Source: Synergistaceae bacterium (GTDB taxonomy: Bacteria; Synergistota; Synergistia; Synergistales; Synergistaceae). From it: a DNA stretch of 43,322 bases. Under the pieces are notes generated by a model. It was not told the origin of the DNA and made no database searches. It saw only the letters and a list, made by a program, of their open reading frames with translations. The position numbers and the translations under genes were made by a program. This document shows, piece by piece, positions 17,763-41,723 of this stretch (the first letter of the stretch is position 1; every line of letters starts with the position of its first letter). Where the stretch lies: contig JAUNHV010000005.1 in the NCBI GenBank assembly GCA_030523725.1, positions 1 through 43,322 on the forward strand, in the 5' to 3' direction.

Positions 17763-19223
17763 TTACAGACCCAAAAGTTTATATACCGTTTGAGATACTT
17801 CTGCGATATCTGCATTTCCGCGAGTTTCCCTCATTACAAGCCCTTGCAAGAACTTAAGTTTTGCACCTTTTTTATCCTTGCCACTCTTAATGAACTCAAC
17901 CGCGTCAGCATTGTCTCGCAAAACGCCTGAGATTATATCAAATAATTTTTCACCTGTCAAGTGCCCAATTGTACCAATTTTTTTAATTGCTTCATCAAGT
18001 GAAAGATTTTTATCAATCATTTTTGCAAATACATCTTTTGCCTGTGTGTTAGAGAGATCCTTCTTTTCAACCTTAGCAATAAGCTTGCCAAGGCAAACTG
18101 GGCAGACAGAAAAGTCTGCAATAGTTTTATCCTGTTCCTTCAAGATACGAAGTACTTCAGTCTTAATCCAGTTGCAGGCTCGCAAAGGGCTTCCACTTTC
18201 ACGGGCCACTGTCTCAAAATAATCAGCTAACTGTCTATCTTCTGTTAGGAGTGCTACATCATCTTTGGAAAAACCATATTGACTTGCAAAGCGTTCTCTT
18301 TTGTCCCATGGCATTTCCGGCAGGGTTTTCTCAATTTTCGTCACATAATCTGGCTTTGCGGACATTGGTGCAAGATTCATTTCAGCATAGTAGCGATAAT
18401 CTTTTGCTCCTTCTTTGTTTCTCATGGAGCGGGTTACACCTGCGGCATCGTCCCACATGCGTGTTTCTTGCACAAGCGTTCCGCCAGTGTCAAGCACTTT
18501 ATTTTGTCTTGCTATTTCATAGTCCAAAGCTCTTTCAATGGAACGAAGGGAATTTATATTTTTTAGCTCAATTCTCGTTCCAAATGAACCATCTGGATTG
18601 GAAAGAGAAACATTGACATCGCACCTGAGAGAACCAGATTCCATTTCTCCGTCTGAAACACCTAGGTATCTTGCGAGCTGTCTAATTTGCGTAACATAGG
18701 CAACTGCTTCCTTTGCGCTGGACATATCTGGCATGGAAACAATTTCTGAAAGTGGGCAACCGCCACGGTTATAGTCAACAAGCGAATAGGCTGCACCGGC
18801 GAGGCGTCCATCGCTCGTCGGATGGACAAGCTTTCCTGCATCTTCTTCCAAGTGCAGATGGTCAAGATGTACACGTTTTTTTTGTCCATCAACTTCTATA
18901 TCAAGATACCCCCCCTGTGCAATGGCATGCGTGTATTGTGTAACCTGGTATGCACTCGGTAAATCAGCATAAAAATAGTGTTTTCTATGAAAACGTGTAT
19001 TGTCACAAATCTTGCAATGAAGCCCAAGTCCCATACGAATAGCAAGCTCAACTGCGTGGTCATTTACAACTGGCAAGGTGCCAGGAACTGCAAGGCAAAT
19101 TGGACAAACATTCGTATTTGGTGTAGCACCAATGTAATCTGTGGAACAGTTGCAGAATAACTTTGTTTTTGTTTTTAATTGAAGGTGAATTTCAAGTCCT
19201 ATAACTACTGGTCTTTTACTCAT
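17763..19223 (-). CDS. gatB: Asp-tRNA(Asn)/Glu-tRNA(Gln) amidotransferase subunit B
   Basis: Kinase/transamidase subunit of GatCAB, which amidates misacylated Glu-tRNA(Gln) or Asp-tRNA(Asn). 486 residues. GLEIHLQLK, LHLEEDAGKL and GSLRCDVNVS are recognisable, as are zinc-type cysteines at 24, 26, 40 and 43. Several usually constant motifs are altered: YRYFPEPD reads YRYYAEMN (276-283) and FYPDLP reads FYADLP (84-89). The start at 19223 follows AAGGGGGAAA; the open frame extends far upstream into gatA but without support. Third gene of the gatC-gatA-gatB operon. Confidence 0.92.
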   Translation of the reverse strand: MSKRPVVIGLEIHLQLKTKTKLFCNCSTDYIGATPNTNVCPICLAVPGTLPVVNDHAVELAIRMGLGLHCKICDNTRFHRKHYFYADLPSAYQVTQYTHAIAQGGYLDIEVDGQKKRVHLDHLHLEEDAGKLVHPTSDGRLAGAAYSLVDYNRGGCPLSEIVSMPDMSSAKEAVAYVTQIRQLARYLGVSDGEMESGSLRCDVNVSLSNPDGSFGTRIELKNINSLRSIERALDYEIARQNKVLDTGGTLVQETRMWDDAAGVTRSMRNKEGAKDYRYYAEMNLAPMSAKPDYVTKIEKTLPEMPWDKRERFASQYGFSKDDVALLTEDRQLADYFETVARESGSPLRACNWIKTEVLRILKEQDKTIADFSVCPVCLGKLIAKVEKKDLSNTQAKDVFAKMIDKNLSLDEAIKKIGTIGHLTGEKLFDIISGVLRDNADAVEFIKSGKDKKGAKLKFLQGLVMRETRGNADIAEVSQTVYKLLGL

Positions 19224-19239
19224 AACAATTTCCCCCTTC

Positions 19240-20706
19240 TTATTCCGCTGCCTTTGGCGTACCAAAAGAATCTTCCAAGCATTTTGCAAGAGCAACAGCA
19301 GTTGAATCTTCAAACCTCTGTGACATAACTTGGAGAGAAACACATTCAGAATCTTGTTCTAGCGAAACAGAAAATGACGGAAGACCAACAAGATTTGCAA
19401 GGCTAGCAAGAGCATCGCTTAAATATGTTTTCGTCTTGTTTGTGGCACTTTCTCCAATGAGCGGTGCAAGCTCTGTTGAAATAGGAGCTAAAACAGCATC
19501 TGCTTTTTTGAACAGATCATCAAATTCGTCCTTTATCATTGAACGAACCTTAATTGAAGGCTCAAAATAATTTTCATAGAAACCACGAGTTAAAATACTT
19601 GTCCCGATAAGAATACGTTTTTTGACTTCATCGCCAAAACCATGCTCACGGGTGTTTTTATACATATCCATAAGGTTTTTGCCGTCCTCATGGTAACCAT
19701 ATCTCATACCGTCAAAGCAAGCTAGCTTTGAGCTTGCGTCGCCAAGAACAGTCATATAGTAGCAAGCTGCAGAGTGCTCACGTGCAATGGGTAAATCCAC
19801 TTCAAAAACTTCGGCACCCTTCCCACGCAGAATTTCTACCGCTTTTTTTTCTGCTTCGATAATTTTTTCATCTAAAAGTGCTTTATCAAAGCCTGTAAGG
19901 ACAGCAATTTTCTTGCCCTTTATGTCAAAATTTGCAACTTCTTTTGTAAAAACAGGGCGGTCATAGGCATCACAGGTGCTGTCATTTTTCTCGTCAGCTA
20001 CTGCGAGAATATCGGTGAGGAGTGCAACATCAGAAGAAGAGCGAGTCATATAACCCACTTGGTCAAAACTCGAGGCACAGGCAATTACACCAAAACGGCT
20101 GACTTGCCCATAAGATGGCTTAAAGCCCTGCACACCGCAATAAGCGGCAGGCTGACGGACGGAACCGCCTGTATCACTAGCCAAGGCAAATGGAACGTAA
20201 CCCGCCGCAACGGCAGCGGCTGAACCACCAAAAGGCCCCCCAGGTACACGGGAAGCGTTGCGAGGATTTTTTGTAGCACCAAAAATTGAACTCTCGGTGG
20301 TTGAGCCCATAGCAAATTCATCCATATTTGTTTTTCCAAGAAGAATTGCGCCTTCTTTTTCAAGCAAAGTTACAACAGTTGCATCATAAAATGGTGTCCA
20401 ATTATCAAGCATGTGGCTAGCACAGGTCGTCTTAATACCAGCCGTGCAGATATTGTCTGATGCCACATAGGGCACACCTAGTAACCTTATATTGCCAGCA
20501 TTGCCACTTGCAACGAGCGCATCAATTTCATCTGCCTTTGCAAGAGCTTTCTCTTCACAAAGTGTGATAACCGCATTTATTTCTTTGTCACGTTGTTTAA
20601 TGAGGCTAAGCGCACATTCTGTGACTTCACGTGCCGTAAAACGCTTTTCTCTCACGCCATTTGCAATGTCTTGCGCTGAAAGGAGGATATAATCTTTTAC
20701 GTTCAT
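19240..20706 (-). CDS. gatA: GatA amidase-family subunit with a degenerate catalytic triad
   Basis: Glutamyl-tRNA(Gln) amidotransferase subunit A by position and sequence, 488 residues. GatA normally releases ammonia from glutamine with a Lys-cisSer-Ser triad. Here the usual (V/I)KDN reads ASDN, putting Ser83 where the Lys belongs, and GGSSGGS reads GGPFGGS, putting Pro158 where the cis-Ser belongs. Only the nucleophile Ser182 (SDTGGS) remains. Spacings of 75 and 24 residues match S. aureus K79/S154/S178, so the alignment is firm. The frame is intact. GGAAGGAG supports the ATG at 20706, one base after gatC. Confidence 0.9.
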   Translation of the reverse strand: MNVKDYILLSAQDIANGVREKRFTAREVTECALSLIKQRDKEINAVITLCEEKALAKADEIDALVASGNAGNIRLLGVPYVASDNICTAGIKTTCASHMLDNWTPFYDATVVTLLEKEGAILLGKTNMDEFAMGSTTESSIFGATKNPRNASRVPGGPFGGSAAAVAAGYVPFALASDTGGSVRQPAAYCGVQGFKPSYGQVSRFGVIACASSFDQVGYMTRSSSDVALLTDILAVADEKNDSTCDAYDRPVFTKEVANFDIKGKKIAVLTGFDKALLDEKIIEAEKKAVEILRGKGAEVFEVDLPIAREHSAACYYMTVLGDASSKLACFDGMRYGYHEDGKNLMDMYKNTREHGFGDEVKKRILIGTSILTRGFYENYFEPSIKVRSMIKDEFDDLFKKADAVLAPISTELAPLIGESATNKTKTYLSDALASLANLVGLPSFSVSLEQDSECVSLQVMSQRFEDSTAVALAKCLEDSFGTPKAAE

Positions 20707-20707
20707 T

Positions 20708-21025
20708 TTATGCATCTCCTTCCGTTTCCAAGGCAATTATGCGTGGTACACGGTAGAAATCTCCGTCTTTTATTGGGGATTCGTCCATAAATTTATCCCT
20801 ACCAGTCCAAGTAACTGCTTCGTCTTTTCTTCTGGCAGGCTCACGCTTTACATCCCATTCAAATGCTTCAAGCGTTTCATGCGGCAAGTTTGCCATCTTG
20901 TCACAAAGGGCAAGAACTTCATTGACGCGAGATATTATTTCATCATAATGACACTCGTCAATACGCAACTGCGACAGCTTAAGAACTTCCAAGAGTCGCT
21001 CCTTGTCAAGCCTCATTTGTACCAT
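20708..21025 (-). CDS. gatC: Asp/Glu-tRNA amidotransferase subunit C
   Basis: 105-residue small subunit that clamps GatA and GatB together. The N-terminal helices (RLLEVLKLSQLRIDE) and the C-terminal DGDFYRVPRI match GatC. The middle diverges from common GatC proteins. AGGAGG lies 7 bases before the ATG at 21025. First gene of gatC-gatA-gatB. Confidence 0.88.
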   Translation of the reverse strand: MVQMRLDKERLLEVLKLSQLRIDECHYDEIISRVNEVLALCDKMANLPHETLEAFEWDVKREPARRKDEAVTWTGRDKFMDESPIKDGDFYRVPRIIALETEGDA

Positions 21026-21366: not shown

Positions 21367-24315
21367 CTATTTGCCAAACATATACCAAACGCTAACGTTT
21401 GCTCCTATTCCAGTGCGTTGACCTGCAAAACCCTGAAGAGCAACTTCACCCTTCCATGGGCTATCTTTTCTTTCGAATTTTACTCCAAATTCTGCTAAGC
21501 CGCTTCCGCCCTTGAAGTCTGAAGTGTCTATTGCTAGTCCATCTGTGCTGCCCTTTGCCTTACCGTCAAACTCATATTCGTAGGCAAGACCGCCAAAGAA
21601 ATTGAAGCCGTTTTTGCCTTCATTGCTATTGTAACGGAATCCGGCGCGGAGCCTGTTGCTGTTTATTGTGTCAAGGTCTATTCCCTCGTTGCCCAAGGTA
21701 GCACTTACACTGTTTTGTCTGTTCCAAAGGTATTTAACGTATGTATCGATGTTGCTTCCACCCTTAACGTTCCATTTGTAGCCAAATCCAGCATGTGCAC
21801 CAAAGTATGTTCCGCCCATATCAAAGCTGGTGTATGCAGTTGGGTCGAAGGTGCTGCTGTTATACTTGCTGTTGATATGTCCAACCCTCACGCTTGCTTC
21901 TCCGTGGAGCTGACCGAGGTCTGTTTTTCTTCCCTCTGCCTTGGCAAATAAACCACCACCAAAGTAGTTAATGTCGCCCTTGGCAAACACATCGGCATCT
22001 ACAAATTTATTTTCCGTGTAGTAACGACCATTTCCGCCTTCTGCAAAGAGACCAAGGGTTAGGTTATCACACACCTTTCCGGAAACTCCTGCTGCAACGT
22101 TAAACATATTGAGGTCGAGGTTGTTACCCACTCTGTCGTAGTTGCTGCGGTTGCCGCCAAGGACAGCAAAGGCTTCCCATCTATTGCTTTGTGGTATTGC
22201 GCTGTCCATGAGAGACGTTGCTACAATGTCTGCTGCGCTGTTGATAGCAGCGATGCTTCCGAGTCGAGCCTGTGTGAAGGACTTTGTGTTGACCGACGCT
22301 TCCGCTTCAAGGAAACCAAGCAATAAACCTGTAAAATTTCCTCCCCATAAAGGATGTTCGTATTCTGCTATTTTTATGCTATAAAGATATTTCTTCAAAC
22401 CCCCGGTTGTTTCAATTTTGTTTGGACCAGTGTAGTTTTTAGCTTGAGATACAAGTATCATTTTTTCACCCTTCGCTAATTTGCTACCTTCCTCGGTCTG
22501 CATAAGGTGCACCTGTGCACCTGTAAGGTCACATTCACCTTTCCCAACCGAACTAACTTCGATGAAGCTATCATCCTTTTTGTGTCCATCTAAATTGAAG
22601 TAAAGATTCCCTGAAAGCTTTACAGGGCTATCTACGCTGAGATATGCATTTCCACCACCTACATAAATATCACCCGTAAGCTTTACAGCATTAGCTGAAA
22701 TTACATTTGACATGCCTAAAGCGCCACAATTATTTGTGTCAACGATTACATTCGTGTTATATTCCCCCGCTTCTAAAAACACTTTTGCATAATTAAACAG
22801 ATTTAAAGTCAGTCCTTTATCGCCATACTCTGACTGCGAAAGTTCAATGATTTCCGTATGCCCTGAAGCTCCTTCTATGCTAACTTCTTCGCCAAGGTCA
22901 GACATATAGTCCGTCATGTAGTCTCCATTTTCCTGCTCACCGAAAAATTTGACGTTTTTCTCTCCAGAAACATTGCTAACATTCAGTGCAAGCACACCTT
23001 CCTTACTGGCTTCTGTTCCAACGCTTGCGAGCTTTGCATAGTTGCCAAGATTGTCAGGATCAAGCAATGCAGACACAAACATATTCTTGCCAGTTGTTAC
23101 ACCACTGTATTTAATATAGTAAGTACGACCGGTAACCTGAGCCGCATTACCCATGTTCAAAAGCTTCACGCCTTGACCTAGTGCTACTTCAGCCATTTTG
23201 TTAATGTCAAACCCGTCACTATATTCGAGCTTCGCTACAGTCGGTGTCTTTATGCCAGTATCGGTGTTTGCATCATACGGATCCTTCAAGGTTACCTTCC
23301 AACCTTGTGAACCGTCGTAGGTGGTATCTATATTAAAGGCGCCACCACAACTCTGACTATGCTTGCCACCTTGAGCGGCAGTCAAAAATGCAATTTTGGA
23401 TTGATCTAAATTAAACGCCGGACGAGCAGCAAAGTTATCATAAGACGCAGCCCTCCACGCAATGATTCCGGTAGGCAGCGACACATCCTCCATTAGTGTG
23501 TAAGCGCTATAACTATAAATACCTGAACGTAACCACCAAGAGGCAGGATTTCCTGACACACCTGCTTCCATCTCCGTAGTATTACCATACATCTTTTGTG
23601 CACCCTGTGCTAGATCCGTCGCTTCTGCTACCCTTGCAGGGTCTTGCACCGTTGGATCTGTAGAAAAACCAAAAGCAGCGCTTAATGCCTCGTCTTCGCT
23701 GAGAAAGAATAGCTTGTCTGTAGCACTAACATCTGAATTCGTAGTATCCTTTATTGCCGCATGTTCCCTGTCGCTAAAGGCATCTCCTGCAAAGCTGCCC
23801 CAAGTATCTGCTTCTCCAGTCTCCTTGAAGGTCGTTTTTTCTCTGCCGGTCGTGCCGTTCAGCACCTTGCGTATATCTACATCTTTCCAGCATTCATGAT
23901 GAGCTCCTCCATTATCAAGTTGGCGTGCAAATAACGCCTTATCTGACAAAAGAAATACTTGCTTTGTTCCTGAGCCGGTGGTGTCATTCGCTAACACGCG
24001 CCACTGAATTCCTTTTTGCTCATAATTGTTCTTGTTGAAGGCTTCGCCACCTTCAGGCGGTGTATAGCCCTCTGCAGCACTCTGGTAAAATGAACCATAA
24101 TAGATTGTTTCCGCTTGATTAGCTCCACCACCGTTACCACCTGTGAAGTCTGTAATCTTCACAATTCCGCCACTTGGCGACGCCTCCGCAGGCGACACCA
24201 CAGGTGTCAAACTGCTCATGGTAAGCACCACAAGCATAACGCATAACCCAAGGCACAAAAATTTCCGTGCCGAACCATTAAAGTAACTTTTTGTAAATTT
24301 TGTAATTTTTTTCAT
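21367..24315 (-). CDS. Autotransporter with a DUF6273-like passenger and outer-membrane beta-barrel
   Basis: 982-residue surface protein. Residues 1-45 form an extended signal peptide (hydrophobic CLGLCVMLVVLTMSSL, then Ala-x-Ala). Residues ~70-315 resemble DUF6273, with IQWRVLAND, VFLLSDKALFARQLD, WWLRSG and RPAFNLD, a pattern seen in many anaerobe surface proteins. Residues ~320-690 are Gly/Asn/Val-rich and beta-helix-like. Residues ~705-982 are an autotransporter barrel with alternating aromatic strands, ending in VSVWYMFGK. It should export its passenger to the cell surface. GGGGAGA precedes the ATG. The long 5' region and flanking repeats suggest its own regulation or an inserted locus. 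Confidence 0.85.
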   Translation of the reverse strand: MKKITKFTKSYFNGSARKFLCLGLCVMLVVLTMSSLTPVVSPAEASPSGGIVKITDFTGGNGGGANQAETIYYGSFYQSAAEGYTPPEGGEAFNKNNYEQKGIQWRVLANDTTGSGTKQVFLLSDKALFARQLDNGGAHHECWKDVDIRKVLNGTTGREKTTFKETGEADTWGSFAGDAFSDREHAAIKDTTNSDVSATDKLFFLSEDEALSAAFGFSTDPTVQDPARVAEATDLAQGAQKMYGNTTEMEAGVSGNPASWWLRSGIYSYSAYTLMEDVSLPTGIIAWRAASYDNFAARPAFNLDQSKIAFLTAAQGGKHSQSCGGAFNIDTTYDGSQGWKVTLKDPYDANTDTGIKTPTVAKLEYSDGFDINKMAEVALGQGVKLLNMGNAAQVTGRTYYIKYSGVTTGKNMFVSALLDPDNLGNYAKLASVGTEASKEGVLALNVSNVSGEKNVKFFGEQENGDYMTDYMSDLGEEVSIEGASGHTEIIELSQSEYGDKGLTLNLFNYAKVFLEAGEYNTNVIVDTNNCGALGMSNVISANAVKLTGDIYVGGGNAYLSVDSPVKLSGNLYFNLDGHKKDDSFIEVSSVGKGECDLTGAQVHLMQTEEGSKLAKGEKMILVSQAKNYTGPNKIETTGGLKKYLYSIKIAEYEHPLWGGNFTGLLLGFLEAEASVNTKSFTQARLGSIAAINSAADIVATSLMDSAIPQSNRWEAFAVLGGNRSNYDRVGNNLDLNMFNVAAGVSGKVCDNLTLGLFAEGGNGRYYTENKFVDADVFAKGDINYFGGGLFAKAEGRKTDLGQLHGEASVRVGHINSKYNSSTFDPTAYTSFDMGGTYFGAHAGFGYKWNVKGGSNIDTYVKYLWNRQNSVSATLGNEGIDLDTINSNRLRAGFRYNSNEGKNGFNFFGGLAYEYEFDGKAKGSTDGLAIDTSDFKGGSGLAEFGVKFERKDSPWKGEVALQGFAGQRTGIGANVSVWYMFGK

Positions 24316-37248: not shown

Positions 37249-38271
37249 ATGAATAATAACTTGCTAACAAACGAAATGATAAATCAAATTAGACATGTAA
37301 TGGAACAAGCCCGTTCCAATGTGGCTAAGACTGTAAACAACGAGCTTATTTCTGCCTATTGGAACATAGGACGCATTATTGTCGAGCATGAGCAAGAAAA
37401 TAATGAACGTGCTGCCTATGGCAAACAAACGCTAAAGGCACTCTCAAAAGCTTTAACAGAAGAATTTGGAAAGGGCTTTTCGGTTTCAAACATATATAAT
37501 ATGCGTTTGTTCTTTTTAACATATCAAAAATTCCAGACAGTGTCTGGAAAATTGAGTTGGTCACATTACTGTGAGCTCCTTTTGATTTCCGAAGATGATA
37601 AGAGAAGTTTTTATGAAAAGGAATGTGTCAATGCAGGATGGTCTGTTCGCGAATTAAAGCGTCAGATGCAAACTTCACTATATGAACGACTGCTGCTATC
37701 TTCAGGCACAGAAAACAAGGAGCGTGTTTTAGAGCTAGCATTAAAAGGAAACGAGATAACAAAGCCAATCGACATCATCAGAGATCCTTATGTGTTTGAG
37801 TTTTTAGGCATCCCAGAAGATAAGCCGATATTAGAAAGCAACCTTGAAAAAGCCCTTCTTGAACATATAGAAAAATTTTTACTTGAGCTGGGCAAAGGCT
37901 TTATGTTTGTTGGAACACAGCAAAGAATCACATTAGGCAACGAACACTATTATGTGGATATGGTTTTCTATAATAAAATACTTCATTCTTATGTGCTGAT
38001 TGAATTAAAGACAAAAAAGCTGATGCCCTCTGCAGTGGGACAATTGAATATGTATCTGAATTACTTTGCCTCAGAGGTTAACGATGAAAATGACAATCCG
38101 CCAATCGGAATTATCCTTTGCACTGACAAGGATTTTTTAGGTGCAGAATATGCACTCGGCAGTTTGAACAATGCAATTTTTGCATCAAAATATACCTTTG
38201 TTATCCCTAACAAAGAAACACTAATTAGCCAAGTGGAAACAGTCATAAAAAAGCTGGAAAACGTTAAATAA
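37249..38271 (+). CDS. YhcG-type PDDEXK nuclease (DUF1016 family)
   Basis: 340 residues. The N-terminal half is the DUF1016_N helical domain (ELISAYWNIGRIIVEHEQ, AYGKQTLKALSKALTEEFG, NIYNMRLFFLTYQKF). The C-terminal half is a PDDEXK nuclease core with Asp237 and Glu252-x-Lys254 (YVDMVFYN, LIELKTKKL), followed by GQLNMYLNYF. The family is abundant in mobile and defence loci and is often found near type I restriction genes. The ribosome binding site is weak. The gene sits exactly between the two 134-bp repeats, which suggests it moves or was acquired as a cassette. Confidence 0.9.
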   Translation: MNNNLLTNEMINQIRHVMEQARSNVAKTVNNELISAYWNIGRIIVEHEQENNERAAYGKQTLKALSKALTEEFGKGFSVSNIYNMRLFFLTYQKFQTVSGKLSWSHYCELLLISEDDKRSFYEKECVNAGWSVRELKRQMQTSLYERLLLSSGTENKERVLELALKGNEITKPIDIIRDPYVFEFLGIPEDKPILESNLEKALLEHIEKFLLELGKGFMFVGTQQRITLGNEHYYVDMVFYNKILHSYVLIELKTKKLMPSAVGQLNMYLNYFASEVNDENDNPPIGIILCTDKDFLGAEYALGSLNNAIFASKYTFVIPNKETLISQVETVIKKLENVK

Positions 38272-38288
38272 ATTTTTGCATAAACTAC

Positions 38289-38422
38289 TTGCTGATAATT
38301 TGTCGGCAACTGAAAAAATCGGCTTCAAAATTATGCAGACTTTTTTCTGCATACCTAAAAGACGAAATGCACTGATTGCAAGGATAAAACGTAGGAAAAT
38401 CGCTAAAAATTTTAAGAAAATT
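38289..38422 (+). repeat. 134-bp direct repeat, copy 2
   Basis: Gap-free counterpart of 37012-37145 with roughly a dozen substitutions, beginning 18 bases after the nuclease stop codon. The changes are not concentrated at third codon positions of the shared frame, so conservation looks non-coding. Confidence 0.9.
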
Positions 38423-38495
38423 CATAAATATTATGAGATTTTATTTATAATGAGGGACGAAATTACTTTAAGCTGAGGAATGTGAGGAGACAAAT

Positions 38496-41400
38496 ATGAA
38501 GATTTTTGATAATGTTACGAATATTATTCGTGACGATTTGAAAGATACAATAATCAAGGGAAGCAAGGTTTCAATTGCAGCAGCCTGCTTTTCTATGTAT
38601 GCCTATAAAGAGTTAAAAACTCAGCTTGAAGAGGTGGATGAGTTTCGTTTTATTTTTACATCTCCTACCTTTACCAAAGAAAAAACAGAAAAACAAAAAC
38701 GTGAATTTTATATTCCTCGCCTTGGTCGTGAAAACAGTCTTTGTGGGACAGAATTTGAAATAAGGCTTAGAAATGAGATGACTCAAAAAGCGATAGCCAA
38801 AGAATGTGCCAATTGGATTAACCGCAAGGCACGGTTTAAGTCCAACATTACCAATGAAAGAATGATGGGCTTTATGAATGTAGATGCTCAAAACTATACG
38901 CCATTTGATGGATTTACAACGGTGGATTTAGGTTGTGAACGAGGCAATAACGCATATTGCATGATTCAAAAAACCGAAGCACCGATGAGCACAGCATACC
39001 TACAGCTTTTTGATCAAATTTGGAATGATAACAACAAATTGCAGGATGTAACAGATGAAGTTCTTGAAAACATTACGACAGTTTATAACGAAAATTCCCC
39101 AGAATTTATCTATTTTATGACGTTGTATCATGTTTTTAGTGAGTTTCTTGATGATATTTCAGAGGATGTCCTGCCAAATGAGGCAACAGGTTTCAAGCAA
39201 AGCAAAATTTGGAATATGCTATATGACTTCCAAAAGGATGCTGCCCTTGCCATTATCAACAAACTTGAAAAATATAACGGTTGTATTTTGGCAGATAGTG
39301 TTGGACTTGGTAAGACTTTTACAGCCCTGTCTGTAATCAAATATTATGAAAATAGAAATAAAACTGTTCTCGTTCTTTGTCCAAAGAAGTTGGCAGAAAA
39401 CTGGAACACCTATAAAGACAACTATGTAAATAATCCTATTGCAACAGACCGCCTAAACTATGATGTGCTATTCCATACAGATCTTTCCAGAAATGGCGGA
39501 TTTTCAAATGGACTTGATCTTGACCGTTTGAACTGGGGTAACTATGACCTTGTTGTAATAGACGAATCTCACAACTTCCGTAATGGTGAAGGTGGCACAG
39601 CCACACACAAAAGCAATGGTGAAAATCGTTACCAAGTTTTGATGAATAAAATAATCCGTGCTGGCGTAAAAACAAAAGTCTTGATGTTGTCTGCTACGCC
39701 AGTAAATAACCGTTTTTATGACTTGAGAAATCAACTTGCTCTTGCCTATGAGGGCAAATCAGAATATATAGACAACACCTTGAACACGTCAAAATCAATT
39801 GACGAGATATTCCGTCAGGCACAAAAGGCTTTCAATGCATGGAGCAAGTTAGAACCTGAAAAAAGGACAACAGAGGCACTACTCACGACGCTAGATTTTG
39901 ATTTTTTTGAAGTGCTAGACAGCGTAACCATTGCCCGTTCCAGAAAGCACATAGAAAAGTATTACAACATCAATGAAATAGGCAAATTCCCAGAACGACT
40001 CAAGCCTGTGTCCTTGCGTCCAAGTTTGACGGACTTGGATACTGGCATAAACTACAACAAAATATATGAAAAGCTTGCGTTATTGAGTCTTGCTATATAC
40101 ACACCATCCAATTACATATTTGAAAGCAGACTGGATAAATATACAGACCTAAATTCCGGCAACGGCTCAAATCTCACCCAGCAAGGACGTGAAAGTGGTA
40201 TTCGGCGTTTGATGAGCATAAACTTGTTAAAGCGTCTGGAAAGCTCTGTGTATTCATTTCGTCTTACTTTGTCTCGCATAAAAGACCTTATAGCTTCCAC
40301 AATTGATGATATAAACGAATTTGAGAAATTTGGTCATGCAGATTTAGATGTGTTTGAAGTCGAAGAAAACGACTTTGATATGGAAGACAGCAACAATGAT
40401 CTATTCAGTGTTGGCAAAAAGGTAAAAATTGACCTTGCGGATATGGATTATACGACATGGCGCAACGAACTTCAGGAAGATGCCAACATTCTTACACAGT
40501 TAATTCAGATGGTAAGCAATATTACACCGGAACATGACACAAAGCTTCAAACATTATTTTCCTTGCTGGACGAAAAAATATCAAAGCCAATCAACGAAGG
40601 AAACAAAAAGGTGCTTATCTTCTCGGCTTTTTCAGACACTGCAGAATACCTTTATGATAATGTCAGCATTTATGTAAAAAATAAATATAAGCTTGATACA
40701 GCAATGATTACCGGCTCTGTTGAAGGGCGCACAACGATAAAGGGAATAAAGGCAACTCTCAATAACATTTTGACTTGCTTTTCTCCTATATCAAAAAACA
40801 AAGCTGTCCTAATGCCAAACAATTCAGCAGAAATAGATATTCTGATTGCAACAGATTGCATCTCCGAAGGTCAAAATTTGCAGGATTGCGACTATCTTGT
40901 AAATTATGATATTCACTGGAATCCAGTGCGTATTATTCAGCGTTTCGGGCGTATTGACCGTATAGGAAGCAAAAATGCCCACATACAGCTTGTGAATTTT
41001 TGGCCAGATATGACCTTGGATGATTACATAAATCTTAAATCACGTGTTGAAACTAGAATGAAGATTGTAGATATGACTGCCACAGGAGATGATAATGTTC
41101 TTAGCCCAGAAGAAAAGGGTGATTTGGAATATAGAAAGGCACAGTTAAAACGCTTGCAGGAAGAAGTCGTAGATATTGAGGATATGTCGTCTGGAATATC
41201 TATCATGGATCTTGGCTTGAATGAATTTAGGCTTGACCTGCTTGAATATGTAAAGAACCACGAGGACTTAAATAAAAAGCCTAAAGGGCTTCATGCTGTT
41301 GTCCCTGCCACGGAAGAAAATCCGCAGGGCGTTATCTTTGTGCTCCGAAACGTCAATGACAGCGTGAATATAGACAATCAGAATCGTATTCACCCATTCT

Positions 41401-41723
41401 ACATGGTCTACATTGCGAATGATGGCAGGGTTGTATGCGATTATCTTAACCCTAAAAAATTACTGGATACCGTCAGGTTGTTATGTCGTGGCAAATCCGC
41501 CCCAGTGTCTGCACTGTGCAATCAGTTTAATAAACAGACAGATGATGGACGAAATATGTCAGAGTTTTCAGCCTTGCTTAATGATGCGATAGTCTCTATC
41601 ATTAACAAAAAAGAAGAAAGCGATATCGACAGCCTATTTTCAAGCGGTGGCACTTCTGCTCTTGTGTCCAAGGTATCTGGATTAGATGACTTTGAGCTTA
41701 TTTGTTTTCTTGTGGTAAAGTGA
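38496..41723 (+). CDS. Large SNF2-family helicase with PLD-like N-terminal region
   Basis: 1075 residues. The first ~170 match the start of PLD-like helicase fusions (SKVSIAAACFSMYAYKEL), but I see no HxK catalytic motif, so the nuclease part may be inactive. The helicase core is complete: DSVGLGKT with Lys273, DESH from 356, SATP from 399, and a C-terminal half with ATDCISEGQNLQ and QRFGRIDRIGS from 815. GAGGAG lies upstream of the ATG. It is followed after 13 bases by the DUF4391 gene, so one operon. The likely role is ATP-driven DNA translocation in a restriction or defence complex, an inference from context. Confidence 0.88.
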   Translation: MKIFDNVTNIIRDDLKDTIIKGSKVSIAAACFSMYAYKELKTQLEEVDEFRFIFTSPTFTKEKTEKQKREFYIPRLGRENSLCGTEFEIRLRNEMTQKAIAKECANWINRKARFKSNITNERMMGFMNVDAQNYTPFDGFTTVDLGCERGNNAYCMIQKTEAPMSTAYLQLFDQIWNDNNKLQDVTDEVLENITTVYNENSPEFIYFMTLYHVFSEFLDDISEDVLPNEATGFKQSKIWNMLYDFQKDAALAIINKLEKYNGCILADSVGLGKTFTALSVIKYYENRNKTVLVLCPKKLAENWNTYKDNYVNNPIATDRLNYDVLFHTDLSRNGGFSNGLDLDRLNWGNYDLVVIDESHNFRNGEGGTATHKSNGENRYQVLMNKIIRAGVKTKVLMLSATPVNNRFYDLRNQLALAYEGKSEYIDNTLNTSKSIDEIFRQAQKAFNAWSKLEPEKRTTEALLTTLDFDFFEVLDSVTIARSRKHIEKYYNINEIGKFPERLKPVSLRPSLTDLDTGINYNKIYEKLALLSLAIYTPSNYIFESRLDKYTDLNSGNGSNLTQQGRESGIRRLMSINLLKRLESSVYSFRLTLSRIKDLIASTIDDINEFEKFGHADLDVFEVEENDFDMEDSNNDLFSVGKKVKIDLADMDYTTWRNELQEDANILTQLIQMVSNITPEHDTKLQTLFSLLDEKISKPINEGNKKVLIFSAFSDTAEYLYDNVSIYVKNKYKLDTAMITGSVEGRTTIKGIKATLNNILTCFSPISKNKAVLMPNNSAEIDILIATDCISEGQNLQDCDYLVNYDIHWNPVRIIQRFGRIDRIGSKNAHIQLVNFWPDMTLDDYINLKSRVETRMKIVDMTATGDDNVLSPEEKGDLEYRKAQLKRLQEEVVDIEDMSSGISIMDLGLNEFRLDLLEYVKNHEDLNKKPKGLHAVVPATEENPQGVIFVLRNVNDSVNIDNQNRIHPFYMVYIANDGRVVCDYLNPKKLLDTVRLLCRGKSAPVSALCNQFNKQTDDGRNMSEFSALLNDAIVSIINKKEESDIDSLFSSGGTSALVSKVSGLDDFELICFLVVK

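Follow-up and report, generated by a model that had tools for sequence, protein, structure and literature searches.

Missing glutaminase residues in GatA and two other amidotransferases of a Synergistaceae bacterium, and the likely use of free ammonia in place of glutamine

In a Synergistaceae bacterium with a small genome, GatA, the glutaminase subunit of GatCAB, has no catalytic Lys, no cis-Ser and no Ser beside the cis-Ser. We are fairly confident that this GatCAB is a working amidotransferase that acts on free ammonia, within a glutamine-to-ammonia switch in every capable enzyme that we found, with enzyme activity inferred. The initial annotation of the locus had reasoned that a GatA unable to split glutamine would have to draw on free ammonia or some other ammonia donor, or else serve in a role other than amidation; the analysis supported this, and free ammonia is the best of the three. 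It is best supported because amidation is needed in a genome without AsnRS, the other amidases carry N-terminal membrane segments, CTP synthase (PyrG) and GMP synthase (GuaA) have lost their glutaminase sites, and GlmS has been spared.

The window, i.e., the whole stretch of DNA that was analyzed (43,322 nucleotides), carries the following features of the gatC-gatA-gatB operon, all on the minus strand:

20708..21025, minus strand: gatC, 105 aa, first gene of the operon; 42.8 bits against TIGR00135, slightly below the cut-off of 47.1
19240..20706, minus strand: gatA, 488 aa plus stop, glutaminase subunit; ATG start at 20706, open frame, passes TIGR00132
20458..20460, minus strand: gatA codon 83, TCA (Ser), catalytic Lys replaced
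20233-20235, minus strand: gatA codon 158, CCT (Pro), cis-Ser replaced
20230-20232, minus strand: gatA codon 159, TTT (Phe), Ser beside cis-Ser replaced
20161..20163, minus strand: gatA codon 182, TCC, nucleophile Ser kept
17763..19223, minus strand: gatB, 486 aa, kinase/transamidase subunit; 576.9 bits against NF004012, cut-off 338

GatA scores 486.1 bits against the curated model TIGR00132 (cut-off 481.1), and its intact frame and place in the operon are as first described. Immediately upstream of gatC, positions 21367-24315 encode a large (982 aa) secreted, autotransporter-like protein whose C-terminal end resembles an outer-membrane barrel. Elsewhere in the window (37249-41723), a YhcG/DUF1016-type nuclease adjoins a 1075-aa SNF2/helicase protein, and the two may belong to a defence locus or a restriction-like one.

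The amidase-signature triad, Lys-cisSer-Ser, had been read as Ser83-Pro158-Ser182, with misalignment against Staphylococcus aureus GatA excluded. The codons bear this out, as does a pairwise alignment with S. aureus GatA (2DF4) in which, with no gap nearby, Ser83 faces the catalytic Lys and Pro158-Phe159 faces Ser-Ser; the protein lacks the Lys-cisSer-Ser triad. The original count of two lost residues was right for Lys83>Ser and Ser158>Pro, but incomplete: residue 159, the second Ser in the SSGGS loop, has gone as well. In aligned relatives, each of the four columns is invariant (Lys, Ser, Ser and the nucleophile Ser, 108/108 each), and the triad is intact in 24/24 full-length GatA loci of the same family. 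Normal triads in close relatives had been named as evidence that would refute the finding; they are indeed present, and the loss is therefore specific to this lineage, which leaves the finding standing. As every one of those 24 family copies is intact, the loss in GatA postdates any shared event. The subject genome is the sole genome of its genus in the comparison.

Near-invariant GatA columns were defined as those conserved at 97% or more (n=77). Seven of the 77 are broken here, and the glutaminase site accounts for three of these, a concentration with P = 0.0018 (hypergeometric test); 33 control sequences from the family and order have 0-2 broken columns each. Relative to the nearest codons used by the family, the three altered codons differ by at least 2, 2 and 1 bases, i.e., at least five changes, which one base-call error cannot account for. 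GatB keeps 62 of 63 near-invariant columns and, judged from its sequence, is essentially normal. The predicted GatA structure (AlphaFold, pLDDT 87.3, pTM 0.91) has the amidase-signature fold, and its best matches in the PDB are GatA subunits, with S. aureus GatA 2DF4 first (TM 0.91). Counting against a glutaminase-dead GatA, Arg364 and Asp431, which align to the glutamine-contacting Arg358 and Asp425 of S. aureus GatA, are still present. GatA also evolves faster, with a GatA/GatB evolutionary distance ratio of 1.37 in this lineage versus 1.14 (s.d. 0.14), and its sequence has diverged strongly over residues 401-480 (identity of 0.31-0.36 to relatives, against 0.71 among relatives). Both features are expected from relaxed glutaminase function, but could also reflect a wider decay of GatA.

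The subject genome (1.55 Mb, rated 100% complete, a draft of 15 contigs) encodes AspRS, LysRS, GltX and GlnRS. AsnRS was not found in it: the best match to the asnS model reached 98 bits versus a cut-off of 342.6, the weak matches fell on AspRS/LysRS, and PF00152 matched only the AspRS and LysRS genes. Among the 61 genomes searched, 12 have AsnRS above the cut-off. The check for GlnRS and AsnRS suggested at the outset thus yielded the first enzyme and not the second, on profile matches. By the logic of indirect aminoacylation, Asn-tRNA without AsnRS must arise by amidation of Asp-tRNA(Asn). Since the genome lacks AsnRS, GatCAB amidation is needed, and the cell should be unable to make Asn-tRNA without GatCAB; the charging of tRNA(Asn) with Asp by AspRS is inferred. 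With GlnRS present, Gln-tRNA formation is unlikely to be the reason for which GatCAB is retained.

Neither a second GatCAB, whose possible presence had also been raised, nor an intact GatA paralogue was found when the subject genome was searched. The other amidases in the genome are two amidase-signature proteins encoded in tandem on contig C8 (L002:1234-2844 and L003:1141-2805), with intact K-S-S triads and N-terminal membrane segments; the next gene after them encodes a 353-aa protein. They are probably exported, to judge from these segments, for which reason they do not look like partners of GatB. Separately, a true loss of gatA was considered for one relative (G009, 96% complete) and rejected: several relatives carry lysS close to gatCAB, and in G009 lysS is undetected too, so the missing gatA is probably an assembly gap.

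The genome was searched by named families only; NadE, CarA/CarB and the tRNA set lay outside any separate survey. The more extensive finding is outside the window and was beyond the reach of the initial annotation: class-I glutaminase (PF00117) matches were limited to PyrG and GuaA, and in both the glutaminase domain is broken:

L144:1471-3066, contig C10: CTP synthase PyrG, with Gly for Cys380 and Leu for His504 of the glutaminase triad
L145:1471-2727, contig C8: GMP synthase GuaA, 418 aa, with an in-frame deletion of the glutaminase core

In PyrG, the motif GICLGMQ has become GIGLGMQ and QFHPE has become EFLPE, so that the catalytic Cys and His are gone. Broken near-invariant columns number 9/62 in its GATase domain and 2/117 in its synthase domain (Fisher P = 0.0014). 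The GuaA deletion corresponds to residues 76-183 of the protein of relatives and removes the whole triad (Cys, His/Glu), and the synthetase part keeps 128 of 132 near-invariant columns. PyrG, GuaA and GatA/GatB each combine lost glutaminase residues with a conserved synthase part, as expected of an ammonia-dependent type. GlmS, the only match to PF13522 (GATase_6), has intact active-site motifs: Cys1 in MCGIMGY, YRGYDSAG, GHTRWATHG and VHNG. A type III glutamine synthetase of 707 aa is encoded on contig C5 (L146:490-2613), so glutamine is probably still made in this bacterium; the catalytic residues of this enzyme were not checked.

Losses in PyrG and GuaA recur in the same family. In PyrG, the catalytic Cys is replaced by Ser in G003 and by Gly in G016, and His by Gln in G005 and G024; in GuaA, Cys is replaced by Gly in G003 and G023, and the GATase domain is absent from G005 and G024. 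The latter two genomes encode a stand-alone GMP synthase ATPPase (L208 and L209; 329 and 326 aa) with no glutaminase domain. A separate GuaA-type glutaminase subunit was not found in either, PF00117 matching only PyrG and a HisH-like protein. These ATPPases share about 51% identity with the synthetase part of the family's GuaA and lie on a long branch; on this evidence they may have been acquired by transfer and not trimmed in place. Extra diverged glmS-guaA-pyrG copies on a foreign-looking contig of G016 (C66) were excluded.

The HisH motif GICLGMQ is intact in G005, G024 and G023; hence these relatives have not dropped glutaminases altogether. The Cys1 motif of GlmS is intact in G002, G003, G005, G007, G009, G014, G020, G023 and G024, and it is thus kept in every loss-bearing genome in which the N-terminus of GlmS was readable (G003, G005, G023 and G024). 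Genomes with PyrG or GuaA losses are small (1.3-1.6 Mb), with the exception of G016 (2.1 Mb, 65% complete). The sites are intact in G002 (1.6 Mb), the one remaining small genome that is near-complete, and in the larger genomes checked. Taken at the level of protein sequence, family members appear to have lost CTP or GMP synthase glutaminase sites separately, with the triad intact in every full-length GatA of theirs. In G003, gatA (L120:1569-3061) is split by a one-base frameshift beside the cis-Ser loop, which could be either real or an assembly error; this genome has lost the catalytic Cys in both PyrG and GuaA. Key nodes of the trees have support of 71-74, and the trees leave unsettled whether the losses in G000, G003/G023 and G005/G024 share ancestry.

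In the mechanism that we propose, GatA would have a dead glutaminase but would still belong to a functional GatCAB. GatB would phosphorylate Asp-tRNA(Asn) and then amidate it with free cellular ammonia, not with ammonia channeled from glutamine, and GatA and GatC would stay as a scaffold, perhaps as a channel wall. CTP synthase and GMP synthase presumably take free ammonia too, and GlmS, being unable to use ammonia, retains its glutaminase. Abundant internal or environmental ammonia may have relaxed selection on glutamine hydrolysis; that the habitat is rich in ammonia is an inference, and so is this cause of the loss. Gut bacteria that ferment amino acids are expected to have ammonia in plenty, and membership of Synergistaceae fits the assumed physiology, amino-acid-fermenting and ammonia-producing; that this bacterium lives in a gut is an assumption. 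Transamidation with NH4Cl has been described for GatFAB (PMC4027206), the use of external ammonia for GMP synthetase (PMC10526850) and that of exogenous NH3 for CTP synthase (PMC9138612), and GlmS, unlike other amidotransferases, is described as unable to use ammonia (PMC9539796). The enzymes reported to use external ammonia, i.e., tRNA amidotransferase, CTP synthase and GMP synthetase, are exactly those without glutaminase here.

Other readings of the GatA sequence have to be weighed against the use of free ammonia. GatA could be the product of an early pseudogene that is drifting to loss, with GatCAB dispensable or only its GatB part of importance. Its faster evolution relative to GatB, the relaxed C-terminal block and the frameshift next to the cis-Ser loop in G003 would all fit such a drift, but the frame is intact, 70 of the 77 near-invariant GatA columns are kept, GatB is nearly perfect, and the losses hit the glutaminase site more than chance predicts. 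Without AsnRS, moreover, there is no other known route to Asn-tRNA, and we consider a decaying GatA unlikely. Another glutaminase or amidase might instead supply GatB with ammonia in trans, for which the tandem amidases on C8, with their intact K-S-S, are candidates. Both, however, begin with a hydrophobic membrane segment and look exported, and the one tested against the GatA model fails (188 bits, cut-off 481). A single GatB-specific donor would also leave the glutaminase losses of PyrG and GuaA unexplained, and such a supply seems very improbable.

We are similarly doubtful that GatA still splits glutamine at a rearranged active site in which Ser182 is the nucleophile and other residues act as the base. 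The retention of Ser182 and of both glutamine-contacting residues would permit this, but the two nucleophile-activating residues found in every relative are gone, their loop carries Pro-Phe instead, and the parallel losses in PyrG and GuaA, which include outright deletion of a domain, point to loss. Least credible of all is a sequencing or assembly artefact. The genome is a 15-contig draft and read evidence is lacking; nevertheless, errors would have had to produce at least five base changes, spread over three codons and two sites separated by 225 bp, without disturbing the frame, and losses of the same kind are present in two further genes that lie on other contigs.

The preferred explanation, amidation with free ammonia, can be compared with known systems. 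Bacterial GatCAB complexes (S. aureus 2DF4, Aquifex aeolicus 3H0L and the Pseudomonas aeruginosa transamidosome 4WJ3) share with the present one the operon gatC-gatA-gatB, the fold, the conserved columns of GatB, the glutamine-contacting Arg and Asp and the nucleophile Ser; they differ in that their GatA has the catalytic Lys, the cis-Ser and the Ser after it, all of which are missing here. Carbamoyl phosphate synthetase 1 (CPS1) retains a glutaminase-like domain that is inactive, with a catalytic residue replaced, and uses free ammonia (PMC4655335). It is likewise a glutamine amidotransferase with a retained but dead glutaminase part, but CPS1 is one specialized enzyme class, whereas here three unrelated amidotransferases of one bacterium have changed together, and GatA differs further in being an amidase-signature protein. 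Type N NadE, the ammonia-only NAD synthetase, amidates with ammonia and has no glutaminase (PMC3376133). Its ammonia form is thought to be ancestral, whereas in the present case relatives have the glutaminase and it was lost.

The two-site form of these enzymes is usually explained by ammonia channeling from glutamine. The open-access literature searched, the coverage of which was partial, contained no previous description of a GatA whose glutaminase is naturally dead. Such a GatA would separate the scaffold and channel roles of the subunit from catalysis in GatCAB, and three unrelated enzymes without channeling, with GlmS spared, offer a natural experiment on the need for glutamine channeling. 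On balance, we think it probable that essential amide-nitrogen transfer in this bacterial lineage (Asn-tRNA, CTP and GMP) has moved to free ammonia, with glutaminase left only in GlmS, whose chemistry requires it, and that parts of this change recur independently in related members of the family with small genomes.
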